A DNA stretch of 36,694 nt from Pirellulales bacterium. GTDB lineage: Bacteria > Planctomycetota > Planctomycetia > Pirellulales > Lacipirellulaceae. Below, piece after piece: positions 23,545-34,756 of the stretch (position 1 is the stretch's first letter; each line of letters begins with the position of its first letter). Position numbers and translations under genes: made by a program. The stretch spans positions 1 through 36,694 of the forward strand of contig JADZFK010000027.1 in NCBI GenBank assembly GCA_020849945.1, written 5' to 3'. The notes beneath the pieces are model-generated. The model did not search any database, had not been told where the DNA came from, and saw only the letters and a list, made by a program, of their open reading frames with translations.

Positions 23545-26500
23545 ATGCCCCAGCACGATGAAATGCCTTTGATACGAAAGGCGGTGGCGTTAGCCCGCGA
23601 GCTTTGTTGCCGCGCACGGGCGTTGCAGACGCCGCAGGAGCGGCGGCAGCAGGCCGAGTTCGATCGCATGATCCAGTCGCCGCACGACAAGGCGACGCTG
23701 ATGCAGCTAACTGACCAGGCCTTTCGGTCGCGGCGGGCTCAGCGGGCGGCCGACCAACTCATCCACATTCTCGATGTCCAGGGTGTACCGCGGTTCTTCG
23801 GGGCCATCGATCGCACGTTGTTGATGGGTTTCCAATCGTTCGGTTCTTATTTGCCGGGCGTGGCGATGCCGTTCGTCAAGGATCGCATGCAGCAGGAGAC
23901 GGCCAACGTCATTCTGCCGGCCGAACGCGAATTGCTGGCCGAGCACCTGCGGGCGAGGTGGCGGGAAGGCGTGCGGATGAACGTTAATTTTCTCGGCGAA
24001 GCCCTACTCGGCGAAGAGGACGCTCGCCGTCGGCTGCAACGATACCTGACCGCGTTGCAGCAACCCGAGATCGAAGTCGTCTCGGTGAAGATTTCAACGA
24101 TCTACTCTCAAATCTCGGCGCTTGCCCGCGCACACACGGTCGAAGTGTTGTGCGATCGGCTCGAGCTGTTGTTTCGCGCGGCCGCCAAGGCTCGGTTCAC
24201 TCGGCACGATGGCACGGTCGTTCCCAAGTTCGTGTATCTCGACATGGAGGAGTATCGAGACAAAGACCTCACGGCCGAAGTGTTCATGCGAACGCTCGAT
24301 CGCCTGGGCTTGGAGCAAGCCCAAGCCGGGATCGCCCTGCAGGCTTACCTACCCGATTCCTTCATCACGCAACAGCGGATCAACGAATGGGCACGTCGCC
24401 GCCTTGCAGCCGGGGGAGGGCCTGTCACGATCCGGCTCGTGAAGGGCGCGAACATGGAGGCCGAGCGAGTGGAGGCAAGCTTGCGAGGCTGGCCCCAGGC
24501 CCCCTACAAAACGAAGCTCGAAACCGATGCTAATTATCTTCGCATGCTGCATGAAGGGATGAAGCCCGAGAATCTTTCGGCCGTGCGACTCGGCATCGCT
24601 TCGCACAACTTGTTCACCCTGGCGTACAGCGCGGTGCTTGCCCTCGAAGCGAACGCACACGATCAGATGCAATTCGAAATGCTCGAAGGCATGGCAAATC
24701 ATCAACGCCGGGCCTTGTTTGAACGGACGGGCGCGATGCTTCTTTATGCGCCCGCGTGCCGGCAGGAAGAATTCACCAATGCGATTGGCTACCTGATCCG
24801 GCGACTCGACGAGAACACCGGCCCCGACAATTTCCTCCGCCACGCTTTCAATATCGAAGTCGATAGCCCCGAGTGGAACACGCTGGAACAACAGTTTCTC
24901 GAAGCCTTTCATGCAAGTGAAACGGTGAATGCCTTGCCACGACGAACGCAGGATAGGGGGCGAGGGCCAGCAGGCGAGGTGCGAGGAGCGAGGAGCGAGG
25001 AGCGAGAAACAATCGGCGAGGGACGAGTGCCAATCGGTTCCGAGGCCTGTACGTCATCTTCTGGCACTCGACCCTCGACCCTCGACCCTCGACCCTTCCA
25101 CAACGAACCCGATACCGATTGGTCGTTGCCAGCCAACGGCGAGTGGGCTGCTTCGATCGTGGCGGGGTGGAAAGATCGGTGCGGGGCCAACGCGGCCGAG
25201 GTGCCCTTGGTAATCGCCGGGCAAGAATTGCGAGGCGAAGGTTCGGGACGCGAATCGCACGATCCTTCGCGGCCTGGTGTTGTTGTGGCTCGTTATCGGC
25301 AGGCCACAGAGAAGGATATCGAGCAGGCAATCGCGGCAGCTCGGGCAACCGATTCGCACTCTTGGAGCTCGCGGCCGATCGACCAGCGCGTGGCCATTCT
25401 TCACCAGGTTGCCGAAGAGCTTGCCGCGCAACGGGGCGAATTGATGGGGGCCATGTTGGCCGAGGGCGGAAAGACACTCGCCGAGAGCGATCCGGAAGTG
25501 AGCGAGGCGATCGACTTCTGCCGATTTTACGCTGATTCCGCGTATTCCTTCCACCACATCCCCGCCGACCCCCACAAGACCGGCGATGTTCACAAGACCG
25601 GCGATGTTCACAAGACCGGCGATGTTCACAAAGCCGGCGATGGCATCGCCGATTCCGTACCCCGCCCGCGTGGCGTCGTGGTTGTTGTATCGCCTTGGAA
25701 TTTTCCGCTGGCGATACCATGCGGCGGCGTGGCGGCGGCTCTGGCGGCGGGCAATCACGTGCTGCTCAAACCGGCGTCCGATACGGTGTTCATCGCGTAC
25801 TTGTTGTGCCAATGTTTTTGGCGGGCCGGGGTGCCGAAATCGGCCCTGCAATTCGTCCCTTGCAGCGGCAGTACCGTGGGCGCCAAGCTGGTTACTCATG
25901 CGGGGGTGGATGCCGTCATCTTAACAGGCGGCACGGCCACCGCCATCGAAATGCTCCGCGCAAAACCTTCCCTCCACCTCCTGGCAGAAACGGGCGGCAA
26001 GAACGCGACGATCGTAACAGCCCTGGCCGACCGCGACCAAGCCATCAAGAACGTGTTGCATAGCGCGTTCAGCCATAGTGGCCAAAAATGCTCCGCAACC
26101 TCGCTCCTCATTCTCGAAAGCGAAGTGTACCAGGACGCGGGCTTTCGCGCCACCTTGTGCGATGCCGTGGAAAGCCTGCGGGTTGGCTCGGCATGGGACT
26201 TGGCGACAAAAGTCGGCCCGCTCATTCGGCCCCCGGCCGGGGTGCTGGAAACGGGGCTTAAGGAACTTGAGCCTGGCGAGGAGTGGGCTGTCATGCCGCG
26301 GTTGCACATCGACGGCAACCCGAACCTCGTCAGCCCCGGCGTGAAGTGGGGGGTTCAGCCCGGTGGGTTCACCCACACGACCGAACTTTTTGGCCCGGTG
26401 CTTGGCGTGATGGAAGCCCGCGACCTGGATGATGCGATCGCGCTCGTCAACGCCACCGGCTATGGGCTTACCTCGGGACTGGAAAGTTTGGATGACCGAG

Positions 26501-27273
26501 AGCAAGAGATGTGGCGAGGCCGAATCAAGGCGGGCAACTTGTACGTGAACCGACCGACGACCGGGGCGATCGTGCTTCGCCAACCCTTTGGCGGGATGGG
26601 CAAGAGCCGAGTGGGCCCGGGGATCAAAGCGGGCGGCCCGAACTACGTTGCCGCGCTCCAGCGGTTCGCCCCCGAAAAAGGTGTCAGGAACCTTTTTCGG
26701 GGGAAGCCGGGCATGAAAAGGTTCCAGACACCTTTTTCCGGGTGGGCGGAGAAGGAGTTTGGGGCGGTCCACGATCACTTCCGACTATTGGGCGAGGATA
26801 ACTTTCGGCGGTATTTACCGGTGGAGCCGCTGCGAATTCGCGTCCACGAGGAGGACACGGAGTGGGAAATCTTCTGCCGTGCGGCGGCGGCGAGGGCGGT
26901 CGGTTGCCGGGCAACCGTGAGTTCGCCACCCACGCTGGGTGGCACGGCCGCCGAGGCGGTCCAGGCGTTGGACGAACTCACGCACGCGTGGGCCGGGGCA
27001 ATCGAGTTCATTGAAGAGGATGACGAAGCCCTCGCGGCCGCCATTCGCACGGGTCAGGTCGCACGGGTGCGATATGCCTCGGCGGATCGTGTGCCGCCCG
27101 GCATCCGGCTTGCAGCCGCCGAAGCGCTGCAGTACGTGGCCGACGAACCTGTTGTCGCGCATGGCCGAATCGAATTGCTATGGTATGTCGTCGAGCAAAG
27201 CGTCTCGCAGATCTACCATCGCTATGGAAACCTTGGCCGCAGAAGCGATGAACCGCGTGACGAGCCTGTGTAA
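23545..27273 (+). CDS. putA: Bifunctional proline dehydrogenase / L-glutamate gamma-semialdehyde dehydrogenase
   Basis: PRODH core (VSVKISTIYSQISA; RLVKGANMEAERVEA; GIASHNLFTLAY) and ALDH core (VVVVSPWNFPLAIPCGGVAAALAAGN; LLAETGGKNATIV; HSGQKCSATSLLIL; NRPTTGAIVLRQPFGGMGKSRVGPGIKAGGPNY). Confidence 0.93.
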   Translation: MPQHDEMPLIRKAVALARELCCRARALQTPQERRQQAEFDRMIQSPHDKATLMQLTDQAFRSRRAQRAADQLIHILDVQGVPRFFGAIDRTLLMGFQSFGSYLPGVAMPFVKDRMQQETANVILPAERELLAEHLRARWREGVRMNVNFLGEALLGEEDARRRLQRYLTALQQPEIEVVSVKISTIYSQISALARAHTVEVLCDRLELLFRAAAKARFTRHDGTVVPKFVYLDMEEYRDKDLTAEVFMRTLDRLGLEQAQAGIALQAYLPDSFITQQRINEWARRRLAAGGGPVTIRLVKGANMEAERVEASLRGWPQAPYKTKLETDANYLRMLHEGMKPENLSAVRLGIASHNLFTLAYSAVLALEANAHDQMQFEMLEGMANHQRRALFERTGAMLLYAPACRQEEFTNAIGYLIRRLDENTGPDNFLRHAFNIEVDSPEWNTLEQQFLEAFHASETVNALPRRTQDRGRGPAGEVRGARSEERETIGEGRVPIGSEACTSSSGTRPSTLDPRPFHNEPDTDWSLPANGEWAASIVAGWKDRCGANAAEVPLVIAGQELRGEGSGRESHDPSRPGVVVARYRQATEKDIEQAIAAARATDSHSWSSRPIDQRVAILHQVAEELAAQRGELMGAMLAEGGKTLAESDPEVSEAIDFCRFYADSAYSFHHIPADPHKTGDVHKTGDVHKTGDVHKAGDGIADSVPRPRGVVVVVSPWNFPLAIPCGGVAAALAAGNHVLLKPASDTVFIAYLLCQCFWRAGVPKSALQFVPCSGSTVGAKLVTHAGVDAVILTGGTATAIEMLRAKPSLHLLAETGGKNATIVTALADRDQAIKNVLHSAFSHSGQKCSATSLLILESEVYQDAGFRATLCDAVESLRVGSAWDLATKVGPLIRPPAGVLETGLKELEPGEEWAVMPRLHIDGNPNLVSPGVKWGVQPGGFTHTTELFGPVLGVMEARDLDDAIALVNATGYGLTSGLESLDDREQEMWRGRIKAGNLYVNRPTTGAIVLRQPFGGMGKSRVGPGIKAGGPNYVAALQRFAPEKGVRNLFRGKPGMKRFQTPFSGWAEKEFGAVHDHFRLLGEDNFRRYLPVEPLRIRVHEEDTEWEIFCRAAAARAVGCRATVSSPPTLGGTAAEAVQALDELTHAWAGAIEFIEEDDEALAAAIRTGQVARVRYASADRVPPGIRLAAAEALQYVADEPVVAHGRIELLWYVVEQSVSQIYHRYGNLGRRSDEPRDEPV
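24974..25095. repeat. Repeat insert in the putA interdomain linker: (GCGAGGA)n on the left, (CCCTCGAC)n on the right
   Basis: GCGAGGTGCGAGGAGCGAGGAGCGAGGAGCGAG at 24974-25006; CACTCGACCCTCGACCCTCGACCCTCGACCC at about 25066-25095. Confidence 0.92.
25573..25644. repeat. 18-bp in-frame tandem repeat in putA (CACAAGACCGGCGATGTT, 4 copies, last degenerate)
   Basis: Copies at 25573, 25591, 25609, 25627; encode HKTGDV HKTGDV HKTGDV HKAGDG. Confidence 0.96.
26671..26743. repeat. BIME-like doublet inside putA (CCCGAAAAAGGT-GTCAGGA-ACCTTTTTCGGG and its inverted partner)
   Basis: Perfect 12-bp stem at 26671-26701; inverted partner GAAAAGGTTCCAGACACCTTTTTCCGGG ending about 26742. Confidence 0.92.
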
Positions 27274-27522: not shown

Positions 27523-28341
27523 TCACGTGCCAGCCAGGGCCATCATCGGAAATGTAAAACAATGAACCGGCATCGGCACGCCAAGCACGGCAACGGCGGC
27601 AACGTAGTCGGGCGCGGGCGATAGCCGCGTCACCCAGCAGTGCGAGCCGCTCACGGGACCTGGAAGATCAGAAAGATCCACCCATCCGGCGAAGCACTCG
27701 GCCAGCGGGATGTGAAGCAGAGGGAGTGCTTCTCCGATGCCGGTTCCGCACGCTTTAAGAACGGCTTCCTTGGCGGTCCAGCAGCGCAAGAAGTTGAGGA
27801 GGCGGACTGCCGGCGGAGCGGCGAGTAGTTCCTTGGTCTCCGCGGGGTGAAAGTATCGCTCGGCAAGTCGCTCAAACTCATTCACTTCGCGGAGCCGTTC
27901 GCAATCGATACCAACTTCCAACCCCCTGGCAACCGCCACCAGTGCTAGTTCGCCCGAGTGGGCTAAGTTGAATCGGATGGATTCGTTTTCCGGGTTATCG
28001 TGTCGTTTGCACAGTTGAGGCTTGCCGCCTGGCGCGGTTGCGAACATGAGGTTTTGAGGTCGATCGCCTACATACTGGCCCAATAGAATCCGCAGCGCGC
28101 CGTGCGAGACAACATACTTCCGCCGCAGGTCTGCGTTTCTTAATGCCAGGGCACGCGACCGCTCTTCGGCCGAGAGCAAGGACTCGCATTCCGCAAGTAC
28201 GTTTGCACCGATCTCTAGCGATGCGGCCCACACATGCGCTTCGGTTACGGGAAGATCGGGAGGCGTTGGTCGCGTAGGCCAGGCAGGCGTCATGGGTCGG
28301 GCCGATGGGGTTTGGGATTCGTCACGATTCTCGATTTTCAT
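27523..28341 (-). CDS. 4'-phosphopantetheinyl transferase superfamily (Sfp-like)
   Basis: RRKYVVSHGALRILLGQY...IRFNLAHSGELALVAVARGLEVGIDCERLREVNEFERLAERYFHPAE...FLRCWTAKEAVLKACGTGI. Start 28341 (MKIENRDE) assumed; the ORF extends to 28362. Confidence 0.88.
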   Translation of the reverse strand: MKIENRDESQTPSARPMTPAWPTRPTPPDLPVTEAHVWAASLEIGANVLAECESLLSAEERSRALALRNADLRRKYVVSHGALRILLGQYVGDRPQNLMFATAPGGKPQLCKRHDNPENESIRFNLAHSGELALVAVARGLEVGIDCERLREVNEFERLAERYFHPAETKELLAAPPAVRLLNFLRCWTAKEAVLKACGTGIGEALPLLHIPLAECFAGWVDLSDLPGPVSGSHCWVTRLSPAPDYVAAVAVLGVPMPVHCFTFPMMALAGT

Positions 28342-29152
28342 TTGCGTTGGAGGAACAGGCAACCAAGCATTGTTCCAGGCGTGTGAGAATCACGCGGAGC
28401 GCGGGCGTGGGGGCTGGGGCGGCGGTTGCCAGGCTTGCACCGGCGGCGGCCAGGCCGCCAAACGGAAAGAAGTGGTCGCCGGGTAGTTGCCGCACGCTGC
28501 ATTCATGGGTTGTGTGGCGTCGCCAACCCATGAGCCGGTCGGGCGGAACGGCCGGGTCCTGTGTCCCTCCCAGAACAAGGAGCGGCACATCGAGTGGCGG
28601 TTCTTCGATGTACCGATAGGTTTCAATCATTCGGAAATCGGCGCGGCTGATCGGCGCGAGGAGATTCCATAGTTCGGCGTTTTCGCGCACGGCCGTAGGG
28701 ATCCCCCCGTAGCGCGTTTGAAGTGCCGACAGCAATTCGTCATCGGTCAACCTGTGCAGCGGTTGCTTCACCACAATGGCATCGGGTGAGGGGAAGCCCG
28801 TCAGCACCAATAGTTGTGGCATGGGGCGGCCGCTTCTTCGCATCGAACGAGCAACCTCGAAGGCGAGTAGCGCGCCCATGCTGTGCCCCAACAGCACGAA
28901 TGGCATCGAGGCCTCTTCCGTGTGCTCGATTTCAGCTGCGACGGCATTCGCAAGCGGGGCGATTTCCGTGAAAAGTTGTTCGTTCATTCGGCCATCGTGA
29001 CCGGGAAGTGCGAAGGGCACGAGGTCTATCGAGCCGGGCAAGTAGGTTCGCCAGCGGCGATAGGGCACGGTTCCGCCTCCCGCGTAGGGGAAGCAGACCA
29101 ACCGCAATCGGGCTTCACTGGGGCCTTTGCAGGCGGGTTTTGAGTTAAACAT
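28322..29152 (-). CDS. Type II thioesterase (alpha/beta hydrolase, GrsT-like)
   Basis: RLVCFPYAGGGTVPYRRWRTYLPGSIDLVPFALPGHDGRMNE...FVLLGHSMGALLAFEVARSM...PGDHFFPFGG. Confidence 0.9.
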   Translation of the reverse strand: MFNSKPACKGPSEARLRLVCFPYAGGGTVPYRRWRTYLPGSIDLVPFALPGHDGRMNEQLFTEIAPLANAVAAEIEHTEEASMPFVLLGHSMGALLAFEVARSMRRSGRPMPQLLVLTGFPSPDAIVVKQPLHRLTDDELLSALQTRYGGIPTAVRENAELWNLLAPISRADFRMIETYRYIEEPPLDVPLLVLGGTQDPAVPPDRLMGWRRHTTHECSVRQLPGDHFFPFGGLAAAGASLATAAPAPTPALRVILTRLEQCLVACSSNANENRES

Positions 29153-29446
29153 CGCGGATTATGCGGAAAAAATCACTTGCCGATCCGCTGGAAGCGGTCC
29201 TTTTCGCTGCCAACAAGAACATTTAGAATGGTACTCTTGCTATGCTAATCGAAGTCGGTGGTACGGGAAGCAGATCGACACCTCGAGGTATTTGGTGGAA
29301 GGTTGGTCTGCCTTTTCGGTTGGTCGAGGCGATCGCAATCGCTGGCCACTTTGGGCCTTGGCTGCACGCGTTGAATTTCGTTACGTCTTCTTTGTCACCA
29401 CCGATTCGCCGCTTTGTGTGTACCGGTGCATTCTGTAGTTGATGTT

Positions 29447-31867
29447 ATGCGTTGTGAAGCAAACTATCAAACCATGATTGAACTGCTGGCCGGCCAGGCG
29501 GCCGATCAGCCCGATTGCCCTGCCTACGTGTTTCTCGACGATCGCGCCGGGGCGACCGAGATCACTTTTGGCGAGCTTGATCGCCGTGCCCGCGCGATTG
29601 CCAGCCGCTTGCAACTCGAATTGTCGCCGGGCGACCGCGCGTTGCTCGTGTACCCCGCGGGGCTCGAGTTCATCTCCGCTTTTCTTGGATGCTTGTATGC
29701 CGGCGTGGTTGCGGTACCAGCAACCTACCCGAAGCCGAAGCGGCCGATGCCGCGGTTGCAGCGGATCGCGCTCGATTGCGATGCCCATATTGCGCTCTCG
29801 ACGGGGCAGACGTTGGCAACGCTCGATCCCGATCTCCTTTCCAACGACGCCGCCACGAGCCAGTGGATCGCCACCGACGAATTGCAAGAGGACCTGGCCA
29901 TTTATTGGCAGCGGCCCGCGCTCGTCCGAAATGATCTTGCGTTCTTGCAATACACATCGGGCTCGACGAGCGACCCCAAGGGGGTAATGGTTTCGCACGG
30001 CAATTTGCTGACGAACTTGGAATGCATTCGCCAGGCGTTTGGCATCGGAACCGATGAGGACCAGGCCTCCTCGACGGGGGTGTTTTGGCTTCCGGCCTAT
30101 CACGATATGGGCCTCATTGGCGGCATCCTCACGCCTTTGTATGAAGGCGGCCGCAGCGTGCTTATGTCGCCCACCTCGTTCTTGCAACGGCCGATGCGGT
30201 GGTTGCAGGCAATTCACGATTATCGGGCCACGATCAGTGGCGCGCCGAATTTCGCTTACGAGTATTGTGTTCGTCGAACCCATGCCGACGAGCGTTCCCA
30301 ACTCGACCTCAGCCATTGGCGGCTCGCCTTCTGCGGGGCCGAGCCAATTCGCGCCGAAACACTCGACCATTTTGCGAAGGCTTTTGCCCCCGCCGGCTTC
30401 GCAAGGAAGGCGTTTTATCCGTGCTACGGTTTGGCCGAATCGACGCTCCTTGCGGCGGGGCCCGATTTCCGCGTCGAACCCCGCGTGTTGGCCGTCAATC
30501 GCACCGCGCTCGCAAAACACCAAGTGGTGCCCGCCTGTGGCGAACCCGATGCGATGGTGCAGCGGCTTGTCGGTTGCGGTTCGCCCGTCCAGGGCCACAA
30601 CATCGCGATCGTCGATCCCGTGGAAGGGAACGAATTGCCCGAGGGCACGGTGGGTGAAATCCTGATCCAAGGCCCCTCGCTCGCCCAAGGTTATTGGGAT
30701 CGCCCCGAGGAAACGGCCCTCGTGTTCGGTGCCCAAGTGCCTGGCCGATCAGGCACGTTCCTGCGAACGGGCGACCTTGGATTCTTCCGCGAAAGCGAAT
30801 TGTTCGTCACCGGACGCGTGAAGGATGTGATCATCATCCGCGGCCGAAATCATTATCCGCAGGATATCGAGCAATCGGCCGAGGGAGCACATCCGGCCGT
30901 CCTTCCTGGCGCGGCCTTCGCACTTGCCGATGAGCACGGCGAGCGGCTGGTTGTCGTTCATCAGCTCGATCGGCAATACCGAGCGGCCGACCACCATCAG
31001 GTGATTCAGGCCGTTCGCCGCGCAATCGTCGAGCAGCACGAGTTGGACCCCTACGCCATCGTGCTGATTCGCCAAACTTCGCTTCCGATCACTTCGAGCG
31101 GCAAAGTGCAGCGCAACTTGTGCCGCGAGCAATTCCTTGCCGACGAGTTGAAGGTCGTTCATTCGTGGACCAATCCGGCGATGCGTTCGGCCGCGAAGGC
31201 GGAAGCGGGTGAGGAGCCTCTCCGGGTCGAAGTTCACGCCGAGGGTGTTTCCAGCCAACACCGCAACGGAAAGGTGTTCCCGGCCGCTTTGTCGGCCGCT
31301 TCGCCGAACGGAAACGCTTCCACGACCGGTGGGGCGAATGCAAACGGCGCGAATGCGAACGCCGCACAATCCACAGAGATGGCCAAGAAGGAACCCCACA
31401 CAAATGGCCGTGGACGATTGAAATTACGCGCACACTGCGGCCCAGTCAGCCCGATCGATATCGACCGAGCGGCCGAGCAGGTCGAAGTGTGGTTGCTCCA
31501 GTGGTTGGTGAATCGCCTGAGCATGGACCCGGCCGATGTTGCGCGCGACCGCCCCTTTGCCGAGTTCGGCGTTGATTCATTGGCCGCCGTGGAATTGAGC
31601 CAAGAGTTGGAAGACACGTTCCAAGTGCCGCTGCCCGCGATCGTGGCCTGGAACTACCCGACGCCCGCAGCCTTGGCCCGGTACTTGGCCGAGCAATCGC
31701 TCGGCGTTAAAGAAGGCGGTGCGGCCTCTTCAGCCACTCCGCTCGCCTCCTGCGGAGAGTCGTTACCCCCCGCGCCAAACGATGAGGAACTCGCGGCGAT
31801 CCTCGCCGAAATCGAAAAACTCTCCGACGAAGATGCGAACCGCCTGCTGGCCGACGAAGTTCAATAA
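29447..31867 (+). CDS. Fatty acyl-AMP ligase (FAAL) with C-terminal acyl carrier protein domain
   Basis: AVPATYPKPKRPMPRLQRIALDCDAHIALST; LQYTSGSTSDPKGVMVSHGNLL; FWLPAYHDMGLIGGILTPLYEGGRSVLMSPTSFLQRPMRWLQAI (FAAL-type); FLRTGDLGFFRESELFVTGRVKDVIIIRGRNHYPQDIE; ACP motif FAEFGVDSLAAVELSQELE. Confidence 0.92.
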   Translation: MRCEANYQTMIELLAGQAADQPDCPAYVFLDDRAGATEITFGELDRRARAIASRLQLELSPGDRALLVYPAGLEFISAFLGCLYAGVVAVPATYPKPKRPMPRLQRIALDCDAHIALSTGQTLATLDPDLLSNDAATSQWIATDELQEDLAIYWQRPALVRNDLAFLQYTSGSTSDPKGVMVSHGNLLTNLECIRQAFGIGTDEDQASSTGVFWLPAYHDMGLIGGILTPLYEGGRSVLMSPTSFLQRPMRWLQAIHDYRATISGAPNFAYEYCVRRTHADERSQLDLSHWRLAFCGAEPIRAETLDHFAKAFAPAGFARKAFYPCYGLAESTLLAAGPDFRVEPRVLAVNRTALAKHQVVPACGEPDAMVQRLVGCGSPVQGHNIAIVDPVEGNELPEGTVGEILIQGPSLAQGYWDRPEETALVFGAQVPGRSGTFLRTGDLGFFRESELFVTGRVKDVIIIRGRNHYPQDIEQSAEGAHPAVLPGAAFALADEHGERLVVVHQLDRQYRAADHHQVIQAVRRAIVEQHELDPYAIVLIRQTSLPITSSGKVQRNLCREQFLADELKVVHSWTNPAMRSAAKAEAGEEPLRVEVHAEGVSSQHRNGKVFPAALSAASPNGNASTTGGANANGANANAAQSTEMAKKEPHTNGRGRLKLRAHCGPVSPIDIDRAAEQVEVWLLQWLVNRLSMDPADVARDRPFAEFGVDSLAAVELSQELEDTFQVPLPAIVAWNYPTPAALARYLAEQSLGVKEGGAASSATPLASCGESLPPAPNDEELAAILAEIEKLSDEDANRLLADEVQ

Positions 31868-31898: not shown

Positions 31899-32939
31899 TC
31901 ACTTACATTGTGCCTGGCGCCACGCGAGGCGGGCCAAACCGGCCGCTCCCAGGTAGCCCGCGTCTCCGCCGAGCGAGGCAAGCTCGATTCGCACCGTATC
32001 ACGCAGCGGTTCGAGCAATCGCGGCCGGGTTTCCGATCGAATCCGCTGGAGAAACTCGCGCCCAATTTCTGTATCGTTGCCGCCGAACGTCATCGCGCCG
32101 CCAAGCACGACCGCATCGGGATCAATCGTATGAATGAACGTAACGATGCCGATCGCCAGCCAGTGGGCTGCCTCGAAGATGGTGTCTCGGCAAACCTTGT
32201 CGCCGCGTTCGGCTTCCTCGGCGATGACACGCGGCGTGATGGCCTCGCCCGCGGCCTGGCGTTTCGCAAGCGCTGTGGCATCACCACGCTCGATTGCCGC
32301 CCGCGCTCGGTTCACGACGGCACTTGCATTGGCGTAGCTTTCGAGTGAGCCACGATTCCCGAGCGAGTCCTGCGGCGCATCCGGGGCCGGGTTCACAAGG
32401 ATGTGCCCACACTCGCCCCCGCAACTGTGCGCTCCTTCCACCAGCGTATCGCCGATCGTGATGCCGCCGCCAATGCCCGTGCCAAGCGTCAACAGCACCA
32501 GGCTGCCGTAGCCTTTGCCGGCACCCATCCAATACTCGCCGTAGGCCGCGGCGTTCGCGTCGTTCGCAAACGTCGTGGGAATTCCGAGATGATGGGCAAT
32601 GCGATCGCGGATCGGGAAATCCCACCAACCCGGAATGTTTCCCGGCCGCAAGATCATGCCGCTCGGCAAGTCGATTGGCCCGGGCGTGGCGATGCCCGCA
32701 CGGACCACGTCGCCGCGGCTGATCCCCTTCGTGGCAAACCACTCCTCGACCACCGAGGCGATCCGCCCACAAGCGTCTTCGGCGCCGCGCTGTTGTTCGG
32801 TCGGAATCGATTGAAACGCGATCGTCCGGCCCATCTCATCCACCAAGCCCATCTTGATGTTCGTGCCGCCAACATCCAAACCAATAAAGAACGGCTTCTG
32901 GCCTTGGGGCGGTTCAATCGTAATTCGTGTTGCAGTCAT
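31899..32939 (-). CDS. ROK-family sugar kinase/glucokinase-like protein without the canonical zinc cysteine cluster
   Basis: FFIGLDVGGTNIKMGLVDEMG; FANDANAAAYGEYWMGAGKGYGSLVLLTLGTGIGGGITIGDTLVEGAHSCGGECGHILVNPAPDAPQDSLGNRGSLESYANA. Confidence 0.88.
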   Translation of the reverse strand: MTATRITIEPPQGQKPFFIGLDVGGTNIKMGLVDEMGRTIAFQSIPTEQQRGAEDACGRIASVVEEWFATKGISRGDVVRAGIATPGPIDLPSGMILRPGNIPGWWDFPIRDRIAHHLGIPTTFANDANAAAYGEYWMGAGKGYGSLVLLTLGTGIGGGITIGDTLVEGAHSCGGECGHILVNPAPDAPQDSLGNRGSLESYANASAVVNRARAAIERGDATALAKRQAAGEAITPRVIAEEAERGDKVCRDTIFEAAHWLAIGIVTFIHTIDPDAVVLGGAMTFGGNDTEIGREFLQRIRSETRPRLLEPLRDTVRIELASLGGDAGYLGAAGLARLAWRQAQCK

Positions 32940-33011
32940 GGCAGTATGCGTGGGTGAACAAAAGAGACTTCGGTCAAACAAGAAATGCTCTTAACAGCCT
33001 AATGCGATAGC

Positions 33012-33625: not shown

Positions 33626-34756
33626 TCACGTTTTTTCACGGAGTTCGGTGGAGGAGATGTCCTCTCGAAATGCCTCGGCGGAGACTTCGTCGCAGAGGTT
33701 CTGAAGCGTGACCGGCAAACGCAGGTCGGTGAGTGAGCGAAACACGCCGTTCACCATGCGGCCGAAGACCAGGAACCGGCACCCCGCGGCCGCCAACGCG
33801 GCCAACGCACCCTCGCGCTCGGCGAGGCCCGCGTAATACTTGGGGTCGGCGATTCGGGCAATCGTATCGGCACCGACGACGAACGTGCAACCCGGCGCTA
33901 ACGCGGCCTTCTCGAAAAAATGCGGAGCGCGTGTCAGCAGTACCCTTTCGCCTACAAACTGGCCCAAGCGGTCGGATATGTCAATGAAATCGAGCGGCCT
34001 CTTATCGACGTTCGTTATCGAGAGCTCAAACGTTACCGGGTGGCCCAATCGCTCTGCCGCCAGCCGTGCCATGTGCCGATGTCCTGTGTGCATCGGATGA
34101 AATGCACCGGGGAAAAGAACGCGAATTGGTTCCGGCGGGTTCCGCGTCCCGCCTCCCTCCACGACAACGTGCGACCGCTCGCCGAGTAGCAACTCGGTCC
34201 ATTCAGGTGGAGCCGCCTTTTCTCTTCGCACGCGTGGCTCCTCCTCACCCGTGGCGGGCAACGGTTCCGCGATTCCGCAGCTTTCCGCAATCGCATTCAG
34301 AATAAGCGTTTTGGCAACGAGTTCTTCCTCGGCGCGGTCGCGTCTTCCCTTTGTCAACTCGCGGGATTCAACCACCGTGCGTTCGCCCGTTTGCCATGCG
34401 ACATGCACCCGATGCGGGCCTCGCTTGGGCCTGGCGGAAACAAGGCTTGCCGTGGCCCCGATGCCGCACAACGTGCGCGGGTCGCCGGTGCCCAGTTCGC
34501 GGGCGCGTTCGAAAGCGGACATCGCCATCGCTCGGGCCGTACGCTCGTGACAATACTGCTCGACAGGGCCGCCCAGAAATCGCTCGAGCGCCGCCGCCGA
34601 GTAAGGAACGATCGCTTCAAGCACGCTTGCCGAACCACCGGGAACTTCGAGTAGCGCGGCAATCGCGCCGCTGCCGCCGCCTGTAACGGCAATCACCAAC
34701 TGCCGCCCGGCGGCATGGATGCGTTCGATAAGGGGTGGGTTCGAGGAGGCCTTCAT
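33626..34756 (-). CDS. CinA C-terminal-like (PncC-like, apparently degenerate) domain fused to an NMN/nicotinate-nucleotide adenylyltransferase-like domain
   Basis: N-terminal IHAAGRQLVIAVTGGGSGAIAALLEVPGGSASVLEAIVPYS (CinA-like); C-terminal VLFPGAFHPMHTGHRHMARLAAERLG (GxFxPxHxGH) with terminal ISSTELREKT (ISSTxxR). Confidence 0.8.
   Translation of the reverse strand: MKASSNPPLIERIHAAGRQLVIAVTGGGSGAIAALLEVPGGSASVLEAIVPYSAAALERFLGGPVEQYCHERTARAMAMSAFERARELGTGDPRTLCGIGATASLVSARPKRGPHRVHVAWQTGERTVVESRELTKGRRDRAEEELVAKTLILNAIAESCGIAEPLPATGEEEPRVRREKAAPPEWTELLLGERSHVVVEGGGTRNPPEPIRVLFPGAFHPMHTGHRHMARLAAERLGHPVTFELSITNVDKRPLDFIDISDRLGQFVGERVLLTRAPHFFEKAALAPGCTFVVGADTIARIADPKYYAGLAEREGALAALAAAGCRFLVFGRMVNGVFRSLTDLRLPVTLQNLCDEVSAEAFREDISSTELREKT

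Follow-up and report, generated by a model that had tools for sequence, protein, structure and literature searches.

The window, the whole 36,694-nucleotide stretch of Pirellulales DNA that was analysed, carries on its minus strand an open reading frame of 376 aa with an ATG start (33626-34756), in which a domain resembling the NMN deamidases of the CinA/PncC type is joined to an adenylyltransferase of the NMNAT/NadD type. The question that arises is what such a fusion does, as no cell that synthesises its own NAD can do without adenylylation of NMN or NaMN. Judged from the genomes that encode it, the fusion is likely to be an NMN adenylyltransferase, converting NMN and ATP to NAD, whose CinA-like domain has lost deamidation and holds NMN. 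The two-domain family is widespread and apparently unstudied.

Domain architecture and active-site residues

The coding sequence was assigned from the open reading frame, Pfam, an AlphaFold2 model and conservation, and its domains from Foldseek and hhalign: an N-terminal CinA/PncC-like domain at about residues 8-160 (34277-34735, minus strand) and a C-terminal nucleotidyltransferase domain of the NadD/NMNAT type at about residues 212-376 (33629-34123, minus strand). Pfam weakly backs both halves, with CTP_transf_like matching residues 214-265 (E=1e-4) and CinA (PF02464) matching residues 12-150 (E=0.002) at 18.1 bits, under the cut-off of 23.5, which a few relatives barely attain. The AlphaFold2 model of the full protein, built from 18 relatives, is confident over the whole length (pLDDT 91, pTM 0.89). 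All 21 matches of this model to the PDB in Foldseek at E<=0.001 are CinA-type structures that lie on the N-terminal half, including 2a9s, 4ct8, 6mr3 and 5kol, with a probability of 1.00. When the C-terminal half was modelled separately (pLDDT 90), all five matches with E<=0.001 were NadD structures (2h29, 3e27, 4ymi, 5vir and 3mlb), also with a probability of 1.00. The hhalign comparison gave E=5e-8 to 8e-8 for the N-terminal half against canonical CinA (119 columns at 8e-8) and E=4e-12 over 142 columns, ISSTELR included, for the C-terminal half against NadD. These results, together with the two nucleotidyltransferase motifs described below, bear out the original prediction, which had assigned the CinA C-terminal fold to the N-terminal half and a NadD/NMNAT-type identity to the C-terminal half; it had named an N-terminal domain unrelated to CinA as an outcome that would count against it, and the structure comparison revealed the CinA fold instead. 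The C-terminal half scores 20.3 bits against the NadD equivalog TIGR00482, far under its 112.45-bit cut-off. A CoaD-like function was dropped, as the hhalign match to CoaD covers just 51 columns around HxGH. The fusion is a conserved architecture rather than a one-off or chance arrangement.

Residues were counted over 125 full-length bacterial relatives and over a separate set of 22 full-length viral fusions. The HxGH nucleotidyltransferase motif, GAFHPMHTGH, occupies residues 217-226 (34079-34108, minus strand), where His223 and His226 are both present in 125/125. The second nucleotidyltransferase motif, ISSTELR, is found at residues 367-373 (33638-33658, minus strand), with Ser369 in all 125 relatives and Arg373 in 124. 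The segment GADTIARIADPKYY at residues 295-308 (33833-33874, minus strand), which ends in an aromatic pair, is aligned by hhalign with the GxDxL...W segment of NadD; Gly295, Asp297, Thr298 and Arg301 do not vary among the 125, and Tyr308 is present in 123. The aromatic pair of GADTIARIADPKYY may provide the stacking interaction with the pyridine ring. Invariance in 125/125 extends to Lys252, Lys283 and Arg333, beside His223, His226, Asp297, Arg301 and Ser369.

The phosphate clamp of AtCinA is formed by the backbone amides of G46 and S48 and the side chains of Y58 and R145, equivalent to Gly284, Ser286, Tyr296 and Arg377 of TtCinA (PMC5384747, PMC4246079). Catalysis involves S31 and K63 (K301 in TtCinA), with a further role for T105 (Thr340), and the activity of AtCinA is not detectable in the S31A, K63A, Y58A and R145A variants (PMC5384747, PMC4246079). 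In the fusion, the phosphate-binding Gly and Ser are retained in PGGS (residues 39-42; 34631-34642, minus strand), with Gly40 in 124/125 and Ser42 in 119/125, plus four Thr. The phosphate/ring contact Tyr52, which belongs to PYSAAAL (residues 51-57, with YSAAAL at 52-57; 34586-34606, minus strand), is kept in 123/125, and Arg141 (34334-34336, minus strand), which hhalign matches with the phosphate-binding Arg377 of TtCinA and R145 of AtCinA, is present in all 125. Thr102 (34451-34453, minus strand) is matched in the same way with Thr340 of TtCinA and T105 of AtCinA, and its column contains 115 Thr and eight Ser (n=125). The nucleophilic Ser, S31 in AtCinA (PMC5384747), is not kept. AVTGGGSG at residues 23-30 (34667-34690, minus strand) stands in place of the AESCTGG block of CinA, and the Ser position corresponds, by alignment, to Ala23 or Thr25 in the window protein; over the 125 relatives it is Ala/Val (56 A and 39 V in the residue-23 column) or, if read ungapped, Thr/Ala/Ser (65 T, 34 A and 24 S in the residue-25 column). 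The general-base Lys (K63 of AtCinA, K301 of TtCinA) has become Leu57 in the window protein, in a column with 90 Leu, 14 Phe, 13 Met and Lys in 0/125. The same pattern is observed in the viral fusions, where Ser42, Tyr52 and Arg141 are each found in all 22 and no Lys occurs among the listed residues.

This residue pattern over 125 bacterial and 22 viral sequences indicates that the deamidation chemistry is gone while the nucleotide-phosphate site is kept. The loss of the deamidase motifs, claimed in the original prediction, is therefore real and extends to the whole family at the Lys position of YSNxAK, and the accompanying doubt over a simple NMN deamidase/adenylyltransferase was well founded. 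Most likely, the N-terminal half still binds NMN, or a mononucleotide like it, but does not deamidate it. A bifunctional enzyme, in which the N-terminal half deamidates NMN by means of altered catalytic residues and hands NaMN to the C-terminal half for conversion to NaAD, the substrate of NadE, is very improbable. The PncC fold, the phosphate site and Thr102 have been kept, and the conserved Lys/Arg111, Arg116 and His115/118 could in principle stand in; however, the Lys and Ser are those whose replacement in AtCinA leaves no detectable activity (S31A, K63A; PMC5384747), and NaAD could not be converted to NAD in the SAR86 fusion genomes, which are without NadE.

Distribution and bacterial gene neighbourhoods

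The fusion is present in 40/44 genomes of its own GTDB family and in 29/29 of those of good quality. Its occurrence in the rest of the phylum is patchy, with 14 of 294 listed genomes, four of the 14 being marginal. A wider scan of one genome per species provided at least 80 further loci in Planctomycetota (including Blastopirellula marina), Gammaproteobacteria (SAR86 and Pseudomonadales) and Chloroflexota; among the matches listed, the Chloroflexota carriers belong to SAR202, Anaerolineae and Roseiflexaceae, and other carriers to Rokubacteria, Latescibacterota and Trueperaceae. A quick tree of the 125 proteins is arranged mostly by phylum with some transfers, and the protein of G164, a genome of the same order as the window, clusters with that of Blastopirellula marina. 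The N-terminal half is not recognisable in a family from the same class (L040-L042).

We presume that similar motifs (NVDK, GxDTxxR...PKYY) occur in the yeast Pof1-type NMNAT and in the plant 'nucleotidylyl transferase superfamily' proteins At2g01220 and At3g27610, and that the plant proteins possibly have the same two-domain layout as the fusion. In the open PMC literature, no papers were found for SAR86 with NadD, SAR86 with NMNAT, or At2g01220, and At3g27610 appears as a database name only. One classification of NMN deamidases mentions further CinA fusions and omits them from its scheme (PMC3855486).

No single partner gene recurs across the bacterial fusion loci, and NAMPT was not seen within about 6 kb of them. 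In many Gammaproteobacteria (L065, L066, L072, L075 and others), a gene for an alpha/beta hydrolase immediately precedes the fusion, with a stop/start overlap of 4 bp, and the two are probably translationally coupled. In SAR202-type Chloroflexota (L064, L071, L100 and L102), ubiD begins a few bases after the fusion and is followed by ubiA and/or ubiX. The fusion adjoins nuoABC in two Chloroflexota and NDH-2 in one, and a ROK kinase is its neighbour in Pirellulales. Taken together, the bacterial neighbourhoods are suggestive of a redox/NAD context.

In the window itself, a ROK-family kinase gene (31899-32981) is situated downstream of the fusion and a divergent acetyltransferase-like gene, in an open reading frame starting near 34719, upstream; one or the other recurs beside the fusion in several Planctomycetota (L047-L050, L055-L057 and L111). 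We also note, by inspection, that adjoining genes at 27523-31867 encode a probable Sfp-type phosphopantetheinyl transferase, a type II thioesterase and a fatty acyl-AMP ligase bearing a carrier domain, and together resemble a small lipid or polyketide cluster. A 1242-aa open reading frame at 23545-27273, also by inspection, is similar to bifunctional proline dehydrogenase/P5C dehydrogenase and contains a repeated short DPHKTGDVHKTGDVHKTGDVHK stretch in its dehydrogenase part.

The variety of the bacterial neighbours (alpha/beta hydrolase, UbiD-UbiA-UbiX, ROK kinase) is consistent with an enzyme that acts on another phosphorylated ribonucleotide, or on a damaged pyridine nucleotide in metabolite repair, rather than on NMN, as are the distance of the sequence from all characterised NadD and the presence of both NadD and NadE in the Planctomycete of the window. 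Nevertheless, such a substrate is very doubtful, since it leaves unexplained the exclusion of NadD in SAR86 and Anaerolineae and the linkage to NAMPT in phages, both discussed in the following section. The other pyridine, CMP or pantetheine substrates considered in the original prediction fare no better, as the apparent NadD replacement, the phage NAMPT linkage and the NadD-type fold point to NMN (possibly also NaMN).

NadD-less genomes and the phage loci

The genome of the window encodes NadD, CoaD and a NadE-like protein. The original prediction had asked for separate NadD and PncC: NadD is present, and PncC occurs only as the degenerate deamidase domain (EWATEGL, LHDPATACK) of a 476-aa COG1058-type protein (L001, contig C36), the only CinA match in this genome. 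The COG1058-CinA proteins of Pirellulales (L001, L133, L136, L137, L138 and L139) have degenerate deamidase domains, with no ESCTGG, YxNxxK or TGxAGP, and resemble the E. coli YfaY type, which has been published as inactive. Across 31 fusion genomes, a CinA with Lys is found in only four (G343 and three SAR202), and NadD is missing from seven.

Of 101 genomes of the SAR86 order, 51 contain canonical NadD, 41 the fusion, none both and nine neither, many of the genomes in these and the following counts being MAGs or SAGs; the Fisher test gives p=7e-20, a value that is not corrected for shared ancestry and so overstates independence. The exclusion may stem from one or a few evolutionary events, a concern that is lessened by the independent result in Anaerolineae (150 genomes), where NadD is absent in 7/9 full-length fusion genomes versus 13/141 others (p=8e-6, shared ancestry again not corrected). 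The PF01467 matches of 13 fusion genomes without NadD correspond by length and sequence to CoaD, RibF, an HddC-like sugar enzyme (HddC-cupin) or the fusion, with two additional short fragments in G344, and no NadM/NadR-like protein is evident among them. Eight SAR86 fusion genomes lack NadE, as do G355 and G344; the PF02540 matches of these ten have the sizes of MnmA, GuaA or asparagine synthase. That NadE is also missing where NadD is missing argues for NMN rather than NaMN as the substrate. G350, G342 and possibly G357 are without NadD and retain NadE, and NaMN may be the substrate in these genomes.

Two SAR86 genomes, G387 (one contig, 1,325,892 bp) and G369 (1,003,251 bp), were examined in full. 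The fusion is the sole pyridine-nucleotide adenylyltransferase recognised in either. E. coli NadA, NadC, PncB and PnuC, SAR86 NadD and a phage NAMPT profile match nothing in the two genomes; NadE is missing, no recognised enzyme or transporter supplies NMN, and the NadB match of 594-601 aa is taken as SdhA. From these gene contents, the fusion seems to have taken the place of NadD in SAR86 and in some of the Chloroflexota. A CinA-like half that is itself catalytic, making or capturing NMN from an unrecognised precursor, would make the fusion a final stage of NAD synthesis that is complete in itself; we consider this quite unlikely, and it would account for NAD in SAR86 genomes in which NadA, NadC, NadD, NadE, PncB, NAMPT and PnuC were not detected.

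The viral collection (IMG/VR contigs of up to 512 kb, some of which may be non-phage) contains 36 loci of the family, 31 of them distinct. NAMPT is located within 10 kb and on the same strand in 14/31 distinct loci, beside the fusion or its split halves, the intervening gap being 2 bp long in L398 and 44 bp long in L401; the identity of NAMPT is backed by Pfam PF04095 in ten, mostly together with NAMPT_N. Among the 13 contigs longer than 150 kb, five have a nearby NAMPT, whereas one NAMPT placed at random on each contig would lead to an expectation of 0.95 (p=0.0014). Only two deposited phages match, the uncultured huge phages LR745208 and LR756511, and none of the PHROGs families corresponds to the fusion.

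In L418/419, L422/423, L424/425 and L426, the N-terminal and C-terminal halves are encoded by separate, consecutive and overlapping genes, as expected of partners. The C-terminal half stands alone in phages L412, L414, L415 and L421. These NMNAT-only forms, the unrecognisable N-terminal half of L040-L042, and the dimeric nature of CinA domains, in which the site is shared (PMC4246079, PMC5384747), would suit an N-terminal half that is a ligand-free dimerisation scaffold and leaves all work to the C-terminal half. This is nevertheless unlikely: the phosphate-binding Ser, Tyr and Arg, which a bare scaffold does not need, are near-invariant in the 125 bacterial and 22 viral proteins, and the split phage versions retain the N-terminal half as a gene of its own.

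As regards other genes on the viral contigs, at L412 (10595-11989), L414 and L415 the NMNAT-only genes are followed by a fusion of PfkB kinase and cytidylyltransferase, HldE-like by Pfam in L412. On the 424-kb viral contig L427, a CinA-like open reading frame is found near one with a NadE-type SGGVDS motif, an isochorismatase-like open reading frame and a CoaD-like gene, which suggests further NAD-related arrangements.

Predicted role and comparison with known systems

In the preferred reading, that of an NMN adenylyltransferase with a deamidation-dead CinA-like domain, the C-terminal half would move AMP from ATP onto NMN to form NAD directly and would perhaps accept NaMN too. The N-terminal half would hold the phosphate and ribose of NMN and could serve as a sensor, an allosteric site or a substrate reservoir for the adenylyltransferase. 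The suggestion, made in the original prediction, of an NAD-linked enzyme or a ligand-binding module agrees with this reading. In phages, NAMPT would make NMN from nicotinamide and the fusion would complete the route to NAD; in bacteria NMN may come from a different source. Where NadE is absent, losing deamidation is understandable, because NMN converted to NaMN could go no further. In the organism of the window, the fusion probably recycles NMN straight to NAD beside an intact NadD/NadE route, since the deamidase domain of the resident CinA is degenerate; it cannot be called essential in this genome because NadD and NadE are present. Pirellulales would thereby possess a one-step route for NMN released, for example, by NAD-dependent DNA ligase.

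Gene content suggests that some marine bacteria and giant phages rely on the fusion for the last step to NAD. If this is true, a family spread over several phyla fills a gap in the NAD pathway of SAR86, a major lineage of the surface ocean, of some Chloroflexota and of huge phages, and genome-based prediction of NAD auxotrophy is altered. The N-terminal half would then also be a natural case of a degrading enzyme converted into a module that binds the very metabolite it had degraded.

The fusion shares with NadD (TIGR00482; 2h29, 3e27) the fold of the C-terminal half, HxGH, ISSTxLR and the apparent position in the pathway. It differs in its identity to NadD of ~20%, in having PKYY for W at the pyridine site, in the additional CinA-like domain, and in the genomic evidence, which favours NMN over NaMN. 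Likewise, it has in common with PncC/CinA (PF02464; 2a9s AtCinA, 4ct8 TtCinA) the fold, the phosphate-binding Gly, Ser, Tyr and Arg, and the Thr of TGxAGP, whereas the Ser nucleophile and Lys base are missing and the partner domain is an adenylyltransferase rather than COG1058. NadM and the NadM-Nudix fusions (PMC3680494) resemble it in the one-step conversion of NMN to NAD, which is predicted for the fusion, and in a fused NAD-linked accessory domain; this domain is Nudix rather than CinA-like, and the C-terminal half of the fusion is NadD-like by fold search. Cyanobacterial NMNAT-C (PMC13036487) was set aside, as its catalytic His residues at positions 16 and 19 leave it no N-terminal CinA-like domain.

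A phage NAD reconstitution pathway has been named NARP2 (PMC12300627). The viral relatives are similar to it in possessing genes for the route from nicotinamide through NMN to NAD, with NAMPT adjoining an NMNAT-like gene; such proximity to NAMPT is a feature of the viral relatives and not of the locus in the window. We take NARP2 to consist of NAMPT and NMNAT. In contrast, the second enzyme of the viral relatives is the fusion of CinA-like and NMNAT domains, either whole or split.
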